From IMG/VR virus record IMGVR_UViG_3300020034_000020, positions 1 to 53,070 of that record: a stretch of DNA of 53,070 nucleotides; one strand, written 5' to 3'. The notes below the pieces were generated by a model. It saw only the letters and a program-made list of their open reading frames with translations. It was not told where the DNA came from and did no database searches. Source of the stretch: a virus. The translations under genes were made by a program, and so were the position numbers. This document shows positions 2,945-47,231 of the stretch, one piece after another (the first letter of the stretch is position 1; the number at the start of each line of letters is the position of its first letter).

Positions 2945-3327
2945 TGACCGACTTTGATAAATTTCTCGAAGAGGAGCGCCTGACGCCCGAGGCGCTGGAG
3001 CACGCGAAGGCCGTCGTTCATTTCGATAAATGGTTTCCCGCTAGTGAACTCCTCTTAGAAATTAAGCCGTCGCCGATCGAGGGCGTGGGTGTATTCGCCA
3101 AAGTTAATCTGGAGGAGGGGACCAACGTCGGCACGGGCCGAATTCTGGGACACTGGACGGAGCTCGGCCGCTTTATGAATCACGACGCAAACCCCAACTC
3201 CGTCCCGGTCATGACAGAGCCTGGGAAGATGGATTTTCTCACGACTAAATTTATCGGTGTGGGCGAAGAGCTCACTTGTGAATACCGCAACATCAAAGCC
3301 GTTCTCTTGGGAGGGCCACAACCATGA
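2944..3327 (+). CDS. SET-domain protein (putative protein-lysine methyltransferase)
   Basis: The protein has 127 aa, about the size of a bare SET domain. It shows the SET landmarks in order: G-V-G-V-F-A (47-52), G-R-F-M-N-H-D-A-N-P-N (75-85, with the N-H cofactor motif) and G-E-E-L-T-C-E-Y (107-114, with the catalytic Tyr). Known SET proteins transfer methyl from S-adenosylmethionine to lysine. It is embedded in the late operon with overlapping neighbours, which points to a virion or host-protein target late in infection. The family call is strong; the target is unknown. Confidence 0.75.
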   Translation: MTDFDKFLEEERLTPEALEHAKAVVHFDKWFPASELLLEIKPSPIEGVGVFAKVNLEEGTNVGTGRILGHWTELGRFMNHDANPNSVPVMTEPGKMDFLTTKFIGVGEELTCEYRNIKAVLLGGPQP

Positions 3328-4115
3328 GCGAAATCTGGGCCGCCGCCGCGGCAGTAGTCGCCGCCGGGGCGTCCGCGTATGGCACTTATCAATCCGGCCA
3401 GAATGCGAAAGCGGCAGCCGGAAAGCAAGCTCCTGGCCTCGATATAGCCCAAGTCACAAAGGACTCCGCCGTGGGCAATATCCAAGCTGAGCCGGACATC
3501 GAGGCCCTCATTCACTCCGCCAATAAGTTTAACGAAAAGGAAAACCTTTCCCTCCTCGAAAAAGCCATTCCTGGATACAGCAAAATCCAGGGCAATCTCT
3601 CCACCTTGGCGCAAAACGCTTCAGCCGACCCCTACGCGTTACCCCAGGGCGTTGCCGATAATCTCACCCGTCTCGCGGCGGAGCGCGGAATTTCTACCGG
3701 CGTGCGCGGGCAAGCCCAAGACTTCTCTCTTCTCCGTGACTTCGGCGTAAACGAGTTGGCCTACGGTCAGCAGAATATTGCCAATACCCAGTCCATCTTA
3801 GGCACGCTCGCGGGCCTGGGAAAAGTGAGCCCCCTTTCGCCCCTTTCGTTTTACTCGACTCCCGGGCAAGCCCTCGGGGCTAGTGCTACGAACATGAGTG
3901 CCAATCAGGCCGGGATCAACGCGCAGAATGCTGCGAGTCAGTACGCAACGGATAGCAGTTGGGCCGGGATATCGAAACTTGCGGGAGCGGCAGCGACCTA
4001 CGGGCAAAACTACAACGCCAACCAACAGACCCAGCAGCAGGCGTTAAACAATAGCTTCAGCCTCTCTAGCGCTAATCAGCCGTCCTTTAATTCCTCGATG
4101 TTCACGGGACCTTAA
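3324..4115 (+). CDS. Internal virion (ejection) protein, small
   Basis: The protein has 263 aa and its ATG overlaps the SET gene stop (ATGA). The N-terminus is a hydrophobic Ala/Val helix containing A-S-A-Y-G-T-Y-Q-S-G-Q-N-A, typical of podovirus internal proteins. Helical sequence follows, then an Asn/Gln/Ser-rich C-terminus. Position and size match the first of three ejection proteins in T7-like phages (compare gp14). The role is inferred from order and composition, not from a diagnostic motif. Confidence 0.55.
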   Translation: MSEIWAAAAAVVAAGASAYGTYQSGQNAKAAAGKQAPGLDIAQVTKDSAVGNIQAEPDIEALIHSANKFNEKENLSLLEKAIPGYSKIQGNLSTLAQNASADPYALPQGVADNLTRLAAERGISTGVRGQAQDFSLLRDFGVNELAYGQQNIANTQSILGTLAGLGKVSPLSPLSFYSTPGQALGASATNMSANQAGINAQNAASQYATDSSWAGISKLAGAAATYGQNYNANQQTQQQALNNSFSLSSANQPSFNSSMFTGP

Positions 4116-16538: not shown

Positions 16539-17801
16539 ATGAGCACTAAACCGGCACAGGATCTTGGAGGCAGTGGCACGGACATGGCACAGAGCGAAAG
16601 CAAGGCGACCATCGCACTTCGAAAAAAACTCCCTCGCGGAATAAGGATCGGGACCTGGGGGGGCACCGCGCACCAAGCAAAGCCTTACTTCGTCCGTTAT
16701 GGCCCCCAGCGGACCGTCCAATCCTTCGAGGTCGAGTCGACCCGCAATAAGTTCGCCGAGGACCTGACGCTCCAGGCGAAACAGTTAGGCTCACCCTCCC
16801 TTGGAGTGAACCATACCGAGATTAAGGAATGGTTGCTTATTAAAGCCCAGACGGGCGCGACGGCGGCCGAGCTCTTGGAGGCATGGCAGAAGCATAAGAG
16901 CCGGATGAACCTGACTCTGACGGTCTCCGAGGCGGTCGGGAAGTATCTCGCCCTCCGGCGAAACGAGGACATTGCGGAAAAGTCCACCACCTACCGGCAA
17001 ATGAAACGCCACCTTGTGGATTTCCTCGTGGCGACCCACGGCGAGCGGCTACTCATCGACGTCACCGCAGAAGACTTGCGGACGCTCCTCACTACGGTGA
17101 TGGACCGGGACGGCGAAAAACCGGCCGCCGCCGTCACCAAAAAGAGCTACCGAAAGAACTGGATGACGTTCTTCAATCGAGCCTGTGCCGAAAAATGGCT
17201 CGAAGTTAATCCCTGTGCCGAAGTTGTGCCCCCTAAGGTACACGCCAAGGAGAAGGAGCTCTTCTCGATCGAGAAGGTGTTCCACTTCCTCCAGGCCAAT
17301 ATTAACGAGCCGGTCTTGCCCCGCGTGGCCCTGGAAATGTGGGGCTTTATGCGGGCCTCCAGTGCCGCCCGAATCCTCGAGGAGCATGTCAACTTTGAGG
17401 AAAAGGGCCTGAAAATGCCCGGCAAGCAGCATAAGGGCGGCAAGTGGAAATTTCGTCAGGGGCATGCCGAGGTGCTTTGGGATTGGCTTGCCTTGGCAAC
17501 CGAGGAAACTTGGGCTCTCGACGAAAAGATGTACGCCGTTCGCAAAGCTCAGGCCTTTATCCGCGCGGGCTTTAAGCTCAAAAAACGGGCGTTCCACAAC
17601 ATCCTACGCCACTCCTGCATTAGCTATCACCTCGCAGCGCTCAAAGAAATGTCTCGTACCAGCTACCTGGCCCAACACTCCAGCCTAACCATGACTGAGG
17701 AATACGAGGGGGTTGCCACCGAAAAGGACGGCAAGCTCTGGGCAAAACTAACTCCGAAGGCCGTTTCAAACGGCTCGTTTGAACAGTTCATCACCTCATG
17801 A
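16539..17801 (+). CDS. int: Tyrosine integrase
   Basis: The protein has 420 aa. An N-terminal arm-binding part is followed by a core-binding helical domain (about 125-230) and a catalytic domain (about 240-410). Catalytic residues are visible: R272 in M-R-A-S-S, H353-x-x-x-R357-H358, H380 and the nucleophile Y389 in T-E-E-Y-E-G-V-A. It would integrate and excise the genome at an attachment site. The C-terminus (E-K-D-G-K-L-W-A-K-L-T-P) looks like integrases of Verrucomicrobiota. It is co-translated (ATGA) with a winged-helix gene. Confidence 0.85.
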   Translation: MSTKPAQDLGGSGTDMAQSESKATIALRKKLPRGIRIGTWGGTAHQAKPYFVRYGPQRTVQSFEVESTRNKFAEDLTLQAKQLGSPSLGVNHTEIKEWLLIKAQTGATAAELLEAWQKHKSRMNLTLTVSEAVGKYLALRRNEDIAEKSTTYRQMKRHLVDFLVATHGERLLIDVTAEDLRTLLTTVMDRDGEKPAAAVTKKSYRKNWMTFFNRACAEKWLEVNPCAEVVPPKVHAKEKELFSIEKVFHFLQANINEPVLPRVALEMWGFMRASSAARILEEHVNFEEKGLKMPGKQHKGGKWKFRQGHAEVLWDWLALATEETWALDEKMYAVRKAQAFIRAGFKLKKRAFHNILRHSCISYHLAALKEMSRTSYLAQHSSLTMTEEYEGVATEKDGKLWAKLTPKAVSNGSFEQFITS

Positions 17802-18205
17802 ATGAAATCACCTACCAAAAAACACTCGAAGAAACCCTAAGGGAGATCGCGGAACTCGAAGCGCGACTCGAGCGGCTCAAAAGAACCGCGAAGGCTCTCC
17901 GAGAACTGACGAAATGGCCCACCGGGGCGTCGCGTCTTATCCTCCCGCCGGACCTAAAGATAACTGGCAAACGGGCGCCAAAATACTTCATGGAGGACAC
18001 CCTCCTTAAGAAGATATTCAAGGACGGGCTTTGGCTCTCCAACGCGAACGTTCGCGAGGCGTTGAGGGAGATGGATTACCCGTTCCTTATCGACAATCAC
18101 CAGCTCCGCAAAACCCTCTCCCGCCTGCGAGTCGCCGGGCAGCTCCAGGTCAAACACGAGCGAGGGTATGCGTTTTTCTCACTACCCCCCAAGAAAAAGA
18201 ATTGA
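17798..18205 (+). CDS. Coiled-coil winged-helix protein co-transcribed with integrase
   Basis: The protein has 135 aa and overlaps the integrase stop by ATGA. Residues 5-40 form a coiled coil (L-E-E-T-L-R-E-I-A-E-L-E-A-R-L-E-R-L). The C-terminal half (L-S-N-A-N-V-R-E-A-L-R-E-M ... L-R-K-T-L-S-R-L-R-V-A-G-Q-L-Q-V) reads as a winged helix. It may help integration or act as a lysogeny regulator. No specific family recognised. Confidence 0.55.
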   Translation: MNEITYQKTLEETLREIAELEARLERLKRTAKALRELTKWPTGASRLILPPDLKITGKRAPKYFMEDTLLKKIFKDGLWLSNANVREALREMDYPFLIDNHQLRKTLSRLRVAGQLQVKHERGYAFFSLPPKKKN

Positions 18206-18211
18206 CCCCAC

Positions 18212-18229
18212 CCAAGGGTATACCCTTGG
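18212..18229 (+). promoter_or_regulatory. Late-type palindrome before the candidate large RNA
   Basis: CCAAGGGTATACCCTTGG is a perfect 18-base palindrome. It is the only copy of the late element that is followed by no coding start; the candidate structured RNA lies downstream. A terminator-like hairpin lies between the two. Confidence 0.6.
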
Positions 18230-18300
18230 CTTGGCTTGCTTCCGTGAGTAAGACGAGCAAGCTGAGCACACTTTTGAGGGGGTCTGCCCTTCGCCTTTGT

Positions 18301-18339
18301 ACCCGGTTTCCCTGCTTACTCCAGGGAGCCGGGTTTTTT
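18301..18339 (+). terminator. Rho-independent terminator after the integrase pair
   Basis: ACCCGG at 18301-18306 pairs with CCGGGT at 18329-18334. The helix continues through TCCCTG/CAGGGA with a one-base bulge, and six T follow. It would end the integrase transcript. Confidence 0.75.
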
Positions 18340-19340
18340 CACGCCCGGATAACAGGTGAAAGATCCTGCCCCCGAGGCCTTGGCTTTCGCGGGAGAGTTT
18401 AGAACGGTGTCCGCGCTGTCGAACAGCAGGGCGGCACTGATGAGCATCGGCGTTGAAGGAAACGCATCTCTCCTACTTGTAGGTGCCCAAGCGAACGGAA
18501 CCTATCAGTGCCTCGGTCAACGAACCGACGCTGAACGACAACGACGACATTGGCGCCAGGCTAGAGGCCGAGCCACCGCAAGTGAAAACTCGGAGCCGGA
18601 ATCAAGCCCGGCATGCTCTTCAGTGCTGCCCGTAGGGCGGCACTGATGGACGAGAAATACCTCAAAGGTTAGGCGCTGCGGATTCTTGATGATAACGGAC
18701 TACGGTTGGAAATCCTGCCCCGTCGCTGAGACCTGGGTGCTAAAGTTTCGCGCAATCCTATAGGCCGAGATTGCCGTCCATCAGTGCTTCCCAACTCCAA
18801 GCGGGCTGAAATCTGTCTGGCCGCAAGGCCGTGAGGACCGTAGCAAGCTTTTGGTTTTCTAGCTTAACCAGCAGAGCGCTGGGGAGGCCTCCATAAAACG
18901 AGCTCCAGAGATCCGGGTTCAAGTCCCGGGGAAACCGCAAAGCACCCCCTGAAACGTGGACACGCCGTGAGGGTCTGAGCTACGGTCAAAAAGTATACCG
19001 GAAACCTCGCCTCTCTGTTATGCAAAGTTTCTTGATGCCCTCACCCGTTACTGGGTGAGGAGTACCCGTTTGCCTACATCTGTCAGCAAAGTATTCATGA
19101 AGACAGGCGCTCGTTGGCGCCGGAAAGACGATCGCTCAACAGTTAATCTATGACCCTCCAAACCAACCCCGTTAAAGAGTATCGCATTTGGTGCACTACC
19201 GACGAGTGCCTAAGCAATCGCGATTCGTTGTGCTTCCGGAGTCATGGTCTTAAATTAATCCAGGCGCCTCGCAGGTTTCCACCGAAACGCGGGACCACTA
19301 CGCAAGGCGCCCGAACCCGTATTCGAATGGTGGGCACACT
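18340..19340 (+). ncRNA. Candidate large structured non-coding RNA
   Basis: About 1 kb without a convincing gene, between convergent genes. It is dense in potential helices: 18416/18426 (CTGT/ACAG), 18433-18441 with 18504-18512, 18568-18593, 18595-18612, an 11-bp hairpin at 18621-18645, 18640-18650 with 18777-18787 (11 bp), 18752/18774, a GCAA tetraloop helix at 18819-18830, a tRNA-shaped element, an 8-bp hairpin at 19039-19060, 19106-19121, 19263-19311 with GTTTC/GAAAC inside. A 15-base repeat (18428-18442, 18634-18648) can pair with alternative partners. Size, phage setting and a tRNA-like part recall GOLLD and ROOL RNAs. Identity, ends and strand are unproven. Confidence 0.5.
18853..18937 (+). 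tRNA. tRNA-shaped element with abnormal anticodon loop
   Basis: Acceptor GGTTTTC (18853-18859) pairs with GGAAACC (18930-18936). TA and a D-arm GCTT/GAGC follow. A T-arm CCGGG-TTCAAGT-CCCGG lies at 18913-18929. The anticodon stem CTGGG/TCCAG (18879-18883, 18904-18908) closes a 20-base loop instead of 7, and no U33-type anticodon is evident. CCA is not encoded. It is therefore a tRNA-like domain of a larger RNA, a degenerate tRNA, or an attachment-site tRNA copy, rather than a normal decoder. Confidence 0.4.
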
Positions 19341-19351
19341 TAGTGTATTTC

Positions 19352-19753
19352 CTACACTGTCAAGCCAGGGAGCTTAATGAGAGCGTCCTCGCAACCCGGT
19401 TCTTTACTGGGCCTGTAACCGCGTTTTTCGATGAGGTGGCGCCAGAGCCCCGTGTTCCAAATGCTCCCGACGACCATAGGGAGGCCTGCTTGATGCGCAG
19501 TCTCTTCCAGAATAGTCATGAGCAAAGGAAACTGCCCGTTTCCAGGTGTGTCGTTACAAATCGCAACTACCGTCAGGGCTTTGATTGTAGGGCTAAAACA
19601 GAGAATGCCGTGTAACGTCACGAACCGATATCTCAGGATTTCGGGGTCGAGTTCCCCGATTGTGGGCTGGGCGAGGATCTCCGTTTGCCACGGCGAAAGA
19701 CGAAGCCCGTTCTTCATTAAAGCCGCTCGTAGATCAATGGGGAAGCGGATCAT
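19352..19753 (-). CDS. GNAT-like acetyltransferase
   Basis: The protein has 133 aa; the ATG at 19753 overlaps the upstream stop. After a beta strand (A-L-T-V-V-A-I-C-N-D) comes G-N-G-Q-F-P-L-L-M-T-I-L-E-E-T-A, in the place of the GNAT acyl-CoA loop and helix. V-V-G-S-I-W-N-T-G-L-W-R-H-L-I-E-K-R-G-Y-R matches the GNAT C-terminal strand-helix. Sequence before this is less typical. It is last in the operon. Substrate unknown. Confidence 0.5.
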   Translation of the reverse strand: MIRFPIDLRAALMKNGLRLSPWQTEILAQPTIGELDPEILRYRFVTLHGILCFSPTIKALTVVAICNDTPGNGQFPLLMTILEETAHQAGLPMVVGSIWNTGLWRHLIEKRGYRPSKEPGCEDALIKLPGLTV

Positions 19754-20025
19754 TTCCCCTTTTCGGCCTCCACCTTCGCCTCGTGAATCTTCTTTAGGAT
19801 CGTAGCGCACGCATCATGGAGCCCGATGAGTTCGCGCAGCGTGAGCTCGTAGGCGTGGCCTTGCAGCGTAAATAGGTGGACGTTTAATTTGATGATAGGC
19901 TCCTCGGTAAGATCGACCTTGCCGTCTTCGCCCCGGGCATAAAGGACCCCGAGCGCAAACGCAGCGAGTTCGTCGCCGGGGATTTCGAGCGGGCCTTCCG
20001 GTTTTTGTTTGGTTTCGTCTCTCAT
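19750..20025 (-). CDS. Small early protein, paralogue A
   Basis: The protein has 91 aa and overlaps both neighbours by 4 bases. The C-terminal half (Y-E-L-T-L-R-E-L-I-G-L-H-D-A-C-A-T-I-L-K-K-I) resembles the same part of the next gene upstream (H-E-L-T-I-G-E-T-L-E-L-K-E-L-F-H-K-V-L), so the two look like a tandem duplication. No family recognised. Confidence 0.6.
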   Translation of the reverse strand: MRDETKQKPEGPLEIPGDELAAFALGVLYARGEDGKVDLTEEPIIKLNVHLFTLQGHAYELTLRELIGLHDACATILKKIHEAKVEAEKGK

Positions 20026-35769: not shown

Positions 35770-36388
35770 AGTCCCCAGTCAGCAGCCCCCCGGCGGTTGG
35801 ATCTATTTTCAATCCGAAACCCGCAAATGGTTTAATGGCGACCAGGGTTTAAAAGAAATGGCCGAAGAGATCGCCGAGCATCGCCGTTACCGGGGGTTGC
35901 CGCGCGCAACGCCCGACGAAGCCCTAGAGGATATTCACGAGCAAATCTGTAACCGGATTGGGCCGGAGCACTGCCGCCCGAATAAAGGCGAGGACTGGCA
36001 GCCGATCCGGCGCGACTACACGCGGAACTTGGATTCGGAAATGGCGCTGGGCTTTACGCGTGGGTTTCTCGAATTCGTGAAGGGCCACGGTGAAATGGTG
36101 GCCGAACCCGAGCTTACCCGCCGCGCCAATATTTGCCTCTCCTGCCCTCTGAATATGAAGGCGGAAGGCTGCGCGGGTTGCACGACCCTCTATCACCTGA
36201 TTAACGCGGCGATTCCGTCCCGGCGCCAAGTGGGGGGCCTGGAAATCTGTGCGGTTTGTGGGTGCGGACTCAAGGCCAAGACTAACATGCCACGCGCAGT
36301 TATCGACGCGGCGGACCAAGGCCGGGATTTGGTTTTTCCCGCGTGGTGCTGGAATAATAAAGAGAGCGAAAACTATCTGCCCTATTGA
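35756..36388 (+). CDS. Cys-rich protein of the late operon
   Basis: The protein has 210 aa and overlaps the XRE gene by 14 bases. The N-terminal half has a helical region with N-R-I-G-P-E-H-C. The C-terminal half carries C-L-S-C-P, C-A-G-C-T and C-A-V-C-G-C-G, about seven Cys able to bind zinc or an iron-sulfur cluster. Function unknown; phages often carry similar proteins near terminase. Confidence 0.55.
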
Positions 36389-36393
36389 TCTCC

Positions 36394-36873
36394 ATGAATC
36401 TCGTCTCGACATATCGCCATGGGTTTATGCGGCGAGGGGCAATTCACCCTCTCGTAATAGTGTGGAATGGCATGCGCAACCGCTGCAAAAATCCGAACAC
36501 GATCAATTATGCCAACTACGGCGGGAGAGGAATTATCGTCTGCGAGAGATGGAGCGACGTTGCGAATTTTATCGAGGACGTAGGGCCGACCTATCGCCCC
36601 AGCCTGACCCTCGACCGAATTGATAATGATGGCCCTTACTCTCCCGAGAATTGCCGTTGGGCTACGCGTCGCGAACAATGCGAAAACTCCAGGAGGGCAC
36701 GGCTGATGGAATTTCGCGGAGAGAAGCATTGCGTCGCGGAGTGGGCGCGTCGTCTCGCGATGCCCCGTTATGCAATTAACGACCGGATTCACAGGCTCGG
36801 ATGGACTGATGAAGAAGCGCTTTCAACCCCCGTAAAACCACGTGCACCTATTAAAATCCCTAGAAGGAATTGA
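36394..36873 (+). CDS. HNH/AP2-like putative homing endonuclease
   Basis: The protein has 159 aa from the ATG at 36394. [33 protein letters not shown] and N-C-R-W-A-T form the pattern of the widespread phage HNH/AP2 DNA-binding family, often mobile. A C-terminal helix-turn-helix-like part follows. It overlaps the next gene by 32 bases. A second relative lies on the minus strand at 46542. Confidence 0.65.
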
Positions 36874-46541: not shown

Positions 46542-47231
46542 TTATGTAAATAAAGCCATACGTCTTTTCCGGCGTATGGCAATTTCTTTTTCTGGCTCCG
46601 TCATCGCGCGGTCAAGATCCCAGCCGGAGACAATTCGATTTCGGAGCGTCATTTTTCTGAACCCAAGACGCTCTGTCCACTCGGATAATGTCAGGCTCTC
46701 CCCGTGATATTCCACGCGATGATTATTCCTTTTATTGCGGCACTGCTCTTTTTGGGTAGCCCAGCGGCAATTGTCTTTGCAGTAGCCTTTGTCGTTGTCC
46801 TTTCGGTCGAGGGAGTGCTTGGGAGATGGTCGTTCTCCCATGTCGCCGAGGAACGTTTCGAAAGAATCTCGCCACTCCGGACAAACGGTGATTCCTCGGC
46901 CTCCGTATTGGTCGTAGTTATGGATTTTTGGGTTTTCCGTGCGCTGAATAATTTGAGCCCAAATCCGGAATTCGTCCGTGTCGGTTTTTCCGTGGGTCAA
47001 AACTCGCTCTCGCGAACGCTCGCTTTGAAGGCATCCGCAACTTCTGGTTGCTCCCTTGATGAGGTAAGTCCCTCGCGAAATCTTCTCTTTGCCGCAATCG
47101 CACAAGCACCTCCATTGCGCATGGTGCATCTCCGTTACTCCGACGAATTCTTGGACCACGAGCCGACCAAATCTTTGGCCGCGAATATCTTTAACCTCCG
47201 TATTAAACGGGATTTCTTGAGTTTCGTTCAT
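46542..47231 (-). CDS. HNH/AP2-like putative homing endonuclease on the opposite strand
   Basis: The protein has 229 aa. The N-terminal part (G-Q-R-F-G-R-L-V-V-Q-E-F, C-L-C-D-C-G, S-C-G-C-L) is the zinc-ribbon module of this family. Y-G-G-R-G-I-T-V-C-P-E-W and N-C-R-W-A-T-Q-K-E-Q-C follow, closely like the gene at 36394. It is the only minus-strand gene in the late block and sits directly after the capsid gene, as expected for a mobile insertion. A late palindrome stands 12 bases before its ATG. Confidence 0.75.
   Translation of the reverse strand: MNETQEIPFNTEVKDIRGQRFGRLVVQEFVGVTEMHHAQWRCLCDCGKEKISRGTYLIKGATRSCGCLQSERSRERVLTHGKTDTDEFRIWAQIIQRTENPKIHNYDQYGGRGITVCPEWRDSFETFLGDMGERPSPKHSLDRKDNDKGYCKDNCRWATQKEQCRNKRNNHRVEYHGESLTLSEWTERLGFRKMTLRNRIVSGWDLDRAMTEPEKEIAIRRKRRMALFT
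46555..46595 (+). terminator. Terminator after the capsid gene
   Basis: GCCATACG (46555-46562) pairs with CGTATGGC (46573-46580), followed by AATTTCTTTTTC. It lies inside the last codons of the opposite-strand HNH gene. Confidence 0.55.

Follow-up and report, generated by a model that had tools for sequence, protein, structure and literature searches.

A large structured RNA with an embedded tRNA-like domain, most likely of a new family, beside a phage integrase operon

The window, that is, the whole stretch of 53,070 nucleotides of viral DNA analyzed here, carries an integrase gene (16539-17801) and a companion gene (17798-18205) that form an operon upstream of a non-coding stretch, which is bounded on the far side by a convergent gene on the minus strand (19352-19810). 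An intrinsic terminator of the operon, consisting of a stem-loop and a T run, is located on the plus strand at 18301-18340 and is shared with two related phages (L001 and L002). The region 18348-19256 contains no convincing gene: the longest open frame within the part assigned below to an RNA has 97 codons, and no open frame common to the window and its relatives was found. The preliminary description of this sequence, which had seen no gene between the integrase pair and the convergent operon, is borne out in this respect. A conserved reading frame was looked for among the relatives and is absent, and a coding explanation is rejected because the relatives have no frame in common. The same description proposed a large structured RNA for the interval 18206-19351. 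This is retained for a segment of about 760 bases on the plus strand, from about 18348, past the integrase-operon terminator and immediately 3′ of it, to about 19110 (ends approximate), but the 3′ end of the interval lies in a different block, conserved at the DNA level. Neither a plus-strand promoter nor a terminator after the RNA was recognized in the window. Elsewhere in the window, two free-standing look-alikes of HNH-type homing endonucleases, judged by eye, occur at 36385-36873 (plus strand) and 46542-47231 (minus strand), with relatives in the genome G002.

L001 and L002, both from IMG/VR, encode integrases that are 78-80% identical to that of the window in protein. DNA similarity to them extends over the integrase and the terminator as far as about 18279-18354, breaks off, and starts again at 19257; the slot in between is filled with other sequences in both phages. 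The RNA is absent from L001 and L002 and thus is dispensable, since two close relatives of the window do without it. The similarity beyond the slot begins with a non-coding block of 108 bp (19257-19364, no strand assigned), with counterparts from about 7863 onwards in L001 and from about 8259 onwards in L002. This block has about 5 variable sites in 108 among the three phages and is far better conserved than the adjacent genes (about 76% DNA identity). The nested stem at 19263-19311, which had been counted among the helices of the RNA, does exist, but it sits in this block, outside the RNA; the changes in it do not preserve pairing, and one pair is lost in L002. We take 19257-19364 for a probable DNA site, such as attP, that lies outside the RNA. 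The slot adjoining the attachment site of temperate phages is the usual place of accessory prophage genes; if the block is attP, the RNA would sit in such an accessory-gene slot. In L001 (6830-7036) and L002 (6825-7030), the slot opens with another conserved non-coding element of about 207 nt, 72% identical between the two, in which an invariant CGAAGCTGTTGGGACTGAATA lies between stems that appear to change together; this element has no match in Rfam.

Relatives of the RNA were reached through a short motif. BLASTN of the region against 50,697 phage and 72,556 plasmid records yielded no useful hit, and neither did BLASTN of L064 and L029 against the phages or of L029 against the plasmids. A 15-mer, AGGGCGGCACTGATG, occurs twice inside the region as a direct repeat (18428-18442 and 18634-18648). 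IMG/VR was scanned for this 15-mer and each returned locus was aligned to the region, yielding two true relatives, L064 and L029; a second motif scan yielded a third, L258, and a stricter two-motif scan of IMG/VR gave zero matches. When about 85,000 genomes were scanned for a 17-mer, no relative was among the 119 matches listed, and a 26-mer with 3 mismatches allowed had no match in two phyla, represented by 392 and 398 genomes. L064 aligns with the window in blocks of 66, 51, and 26 nt at 94-96% identity (E down to 5e-25), and L029 in 49 nt at 92% and 24 nt at 96% identity. The family therefore comprises four members, including L029 and L258, which are nearly identical to each other: they agree at about 97% outside the tRNA interior, the linker that follows it, and the arm tip, and their differences are confined to these three places. 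The record holding L064 (G001) has no detectable protein match to the frames of the window, except to those overlapping the RNA. By sequence comparison, then, conservation is stronger in the RNA than in the surrounding genes, and transfer of the RNA between phages is probable. Two other genomes, G002 and G005, have distant terminase, helicase, and other proteins in common with the window. In L029, a 60-residue open frame on the minus strand (3278-3460) lies between the tRNA-like domain and the core and is missing in L258. The phage holding L064 also contains a low-complexity repeat (L262, 9588-9854): one strand reads (MALAMA)n, and the opposite strand gives repeats of A, I, and R.

All four phages contain an almost invariant core, GGTGTCCGYGCTGTCGAACAGCAGGGCGGCACTGATGAG, followed by a hypervariable arm and then by CTTCAGTGCTTCYCRAYTCCAAGCGG. 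The order of elements is the same in each: CGGTGTCCG(C/T), a hairpin GCTG-TCGAA-CAGC (its loop is TGAA in L258 instead of TCGAA), an arm helix starting with GGGCGGCACTGATG, and a hypervariable tip, followed by the returning strand, TCAGTGCTTCCC or similar, and by ACTCCAAGCGG. On the plus strand of the window, the nearly invariant 5′ half of the core (18405-18447) comprises CGGTGTCCGC, the hairpin, and the 5′ strand of arm A (18429-18447), which pairs with the 3′ strand at 18613-18631 to form the covarying helix described below. The apical part of arm A (18448-18612) is hypervariable and dissimilar to the relatives, and even L029 and L258 have different tips. The window has in addition an arm B, absent from the relatives: its 5′ strand (18635-18652) is a second copy of GGGCGGCACTGATG, corresponding to the direct repeat given above, and is matched by an inverted repeat at 18775-18792. 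The 3′ half of the core, AACTCCAAGCGG (18793-18806), is kept in all four phages, and GCGG at 18801-18804, within the ACTCCAAGCGG element, can pair with CCGC at 18411-18414 to close the core. A 12-bp hairpin at 18620-18646 (TCAGTGCTGCCC-GTA-GGGCGGCACTGA, with one G-U pair) competes with the longer arms A and B, so that a switch of the window RNA between two arm arrangements is conceivable.

Compensatory change among relatives, proposed in the preliminary description as a check on the RNA, is found in the arm helix of the core. Both sides change with pairing kept at 5 of the 19 pairs, and 90.5% of the cells pair across five copies (arms A and B of the window, L029, L258, and L064). The covariation score of 0.253, from these few rows in an alignment set by hand around the helix, where arms A and B belong to a single molecule and L029 is closely related to L258, compares with 0.116 ± 0.031 in shuffled alignments, none of 500 reaching it, and with at most 0.131 in slid controls. 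Independent folds of L064, L029, and L258 each give the arm helix a probability of about 0.95-1.0. One G-U pair is present in five of five rows; the opposite strand would have an A-C there. Since this pair is kept and the sense strand folds better in every member, the RNA is the plus strand of the window.

Folding energies agree with this orientation. The plus strand at 18355-19256 folds better than its shuffles (z = -3.6), and the RNA itself (18348-19110) has z = -3.15, as against +0.34 to +1.34 for four control stretches of the same window. The other three family RNAs have z-scores of -1.68, -4.44, and -7.95; that of L064 is weak, and each of the four beats its own antisense strand. Members span 550-1060 nt of low folding energy, all in virus records. 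When 300-nt windows were slid over the whole record, the region was unremarkable except for the terminator, so local folding energy alone is insufficient as proof. Among the helices that had been picked out by eye, GGCC-GCAA-GGCC (18819-18830), an 8-bp hairpin (19039-19060), the 12-bp hairpin at 18620-18646, and the tRNA shape are all present.

These data bear on two explanations that involve no functional RNA. The inverted and direct repeats adjoin an integrase gene and a likely attP block (19257-19364), and five copies of GGCACTGATG in alternating orientation could be protein sites of a DNA element, be it attP arms, a replication origin, or a protein-binding array. However, the repeats are missing from phages whose integrases are 78-80% identical, pairing persists where the arm sequence outside the motif changes, one G-U pair is kept throughout, and in four of four members folding is better on the sense strand. 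A DNA element is accordingly very improbable; covariation rejects it for the RNA part, and it is retained for 19257-19364. Still less credible are remnants of a decayed tRNA or gene in which hairpins arose by chance. The pseudo-tRNA indeed does not look chargeable, but blocks are 92-96% conserved across phages, divergence is limited to tips and linkers, and the covariation of the arm helix contradicts a remnant. That the segment represents a real structured RNA family is, by this comparison, hardly in doubt, and relative to Rfam and the open-access literature the family is most likely new.

The 3′ half comes in two unrelated-looking types, one in the window and L064 and the other in L029 and L258. 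The former type has in common GGCC-GNRA-GGCC, CCGTAGC/GCTACGG, GAAACGTGGACACGCCGTG, and a CCT(C/T)ACCC hairpin. In the window, the first of these is the plus-strand hairpin at 18819-18830, whose GCAA loop is GAAA in L064, so that GNRA is kept. A helix of GACCGTAGC (18836-18844) with GCTACGGTC (18979-18987), 7 of whose 9 pairs can form in L064, encloses the tRNA-like domain, and the hairpin CCTCACCC-GTTACT-GGGTGAGG (19039-19060) recurs in L064 with an altered loop and a G-U pair. The consensus fold of the two 3′ domains has 14 double changes and no broken pair, a weak result in that it comes from two sequences judged against their own consensus.

The tRNA-shaped element mentioned in the preliminary description is real: 18853-18937 (plus strand) matches the Rfam tRNA model RF00005 with 46 bits (E = 2.4e-10, cut-off 29 bits). 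ARAGORN and cmscan missed it on larger stretches, including the whole window; it was found by a dedicated search or by scanning a short stretch. The acceptor (GGTTTTC/GGAAACC) and the D and T arms are canonical, and the acceptor is prolonged by GCTTT (18847-18851) pairing with AAAGC (18939-18943). Between the anticodon stem halves CTGG and CCAG there are 22 nt, not a 7-nt loop with a readable anticodon. In an unconstrained fold of the window, an alternative middle is favored over the cloverleaf in this domain (-31.9 vs. -22.7 kcal/mol). The tRNA-like domain is present in one relative as well: at about 360 nt 5′ of the core, L029 has a domain resembling tRNA-Leu (38.7 bits), whose anticodon loop is enlarged and which stands on a long acceptor helix. 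In L258, a T arm is found on a similarly long acceptor helix with a different interior, and L064 has a plain long hairpin at the corresponding position, without a tRNA-like domain. The anticodon loop region includes a perfect palindrome in the window (GGAGGCCTCC, 10 nt, 18883-18892) and in L029 (AGGTTGCAACCT, 12 nt), a feature noticed after the fact in two members and seen in neither L258 nor L064.

Such a domain invites a reading as a tRNA decoy or sponge, the main rival to a scaffold: an arm with an altered anticodon loop would mop up or block a host enzyme, e.g., an anticodon nuclease or another tRNA-acting defense. Consistent with a decoy, the window and L029 both retain the T arm and acceptor around an altered anticodon loop, and L029 and L258, nearly identical elsewhere, have a hypervariable tRNA interior. 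L064, however, lacks the domain altogether, and a long conserved core and a body of up to 1 kb would be superfluous for this purpose. We consider a decoy unlikely.

The explanation that we prefer, somewhat favored when taken as a whole, is a large phage RNA of a new family working as a scaffold in the manner of GOLLD; for the scaffold function itself, which is argued by analogy, the chances appear evenly balanced. In this model, the hypervariable tips are carried by a conserved core that consists of a short hairpin, the long arm helix, and a closing helix of 4 bp, and the tRNA-like domain is built in on its lengthened acceptor stem. The RNA would be transcribed during the phage cycle and would fold by itself into a scaffold; self-complementary loops may join copies into an oligomer, and the tRNA-like and variable arms would be held or presented to host or phage partners. 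The pattern of exchange, in which the body is kept and replacement is limited to the tips, one linker, and the tRNA interior, fits a display scaffold with fast-changing targets. A bolder version, for which we would give a modest minority chance, sees a horizontally moving new class of giant phage RNA that assembles itself into a scaffold whose subunits bear exchangeable arms, copies being linked by the self-complementary replacement of the anticodon loop in the tRNA-like arm. To our knowledge, few giant ornate RNAs have been described from phages, and what they do is poorly understood. A conserved body with defined variable tips would offer a clean experimental handle on what such RNAs hold or bind.

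GOLLD forms a closed RNA-only oligomer, a 14-mer cage; its expression rises during phage lysis, and its 3′ region is described as universally conserved. The covariance model of this conserved 3′ region (RF02032, 416 positions) has no match at E ≤ 10 in the window, G001, or G002, and because the model fails in these three records, an identification as GOLLD is not supported. The preliminary description had pointed to GOLLD or ROOL or else a new class, and proposed the Rfam models as a check. A cmscan of window 18150-19400 and L029 2690-3760 at E ≤ 10 returned neither GOLLD nor ROOL (presumably RF03087), with the same speed filters on that hid the tRNA and could let a very weak ROOL match escape. 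As neither model matches, it is the new class that holds from that proposal. GOLLD examples were also sought in 101 genomes of one phylum, where none was found; the control genomes had no match either. A highly diverged GOLLD, whose conserved 3′ region has changed beyond the reach of the Rfam model, would account for a tRNA-like domain about 500 nt into an RNA of about 760 nt in a phage setting. It is nevertheless improbable: the region described as universally conserved gives no match, conservation here is highest in the 5′ core, and two types of 3′ half exist.

As a new family, the RNA can be set against several known systems. From ROOL it differs in that the covariance model does not match and the tRNA-like domain lies inside the RNA. 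We know of no internal tRNA-like domain described for ROOL. The likeness lies in a large ornate phage RNA of unknown function, in the case of ROOL often near tRNAs (PMC12286853). With tRNA (RF00005) it shares the acceptor, D, and T arms at 46 bits, but the 22 nt between the anticodon stem halves and the extension of the acceptor into the surrounding RNA set it apart, and ARAGORN makes no call. Like tmRNA, it has a tRNA-like domain within a larger RNA, but this domain is internal rather than built from both RNA ends, and tmRNA was found neither as a model match by cmscan nor as an ARAGORN call. In kind, it resembles GOLLD, a large phage or prophage RNA of about 0.8 kb with an elaborate fold, which forms an RNA-only cage and sometimes has tRNAs or a pseudo-tRNA in a linker (PMC12286853, PMC6582537); a mycobacterial GOLLD gene contains a pseudo-tRNA without detectable expression of its own (PMC6582537). 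Phage setting, length class (several hundred to more than 800 nt), and a pseudo-tRNA in a linker are all found here. In contrast, it is the 5′ core and not the 3′ region that is common to all members, and the arm is duplicated in the window, a distinction drawn from the covariance model and the published description rather than from GOLLD sequences set side by side. A family that matches neither GOLLD nor ROOL and yet carries a broken tRNA-like arm suggests that the combination of a large phage RNA with an embedded piece of tRNA recurs.
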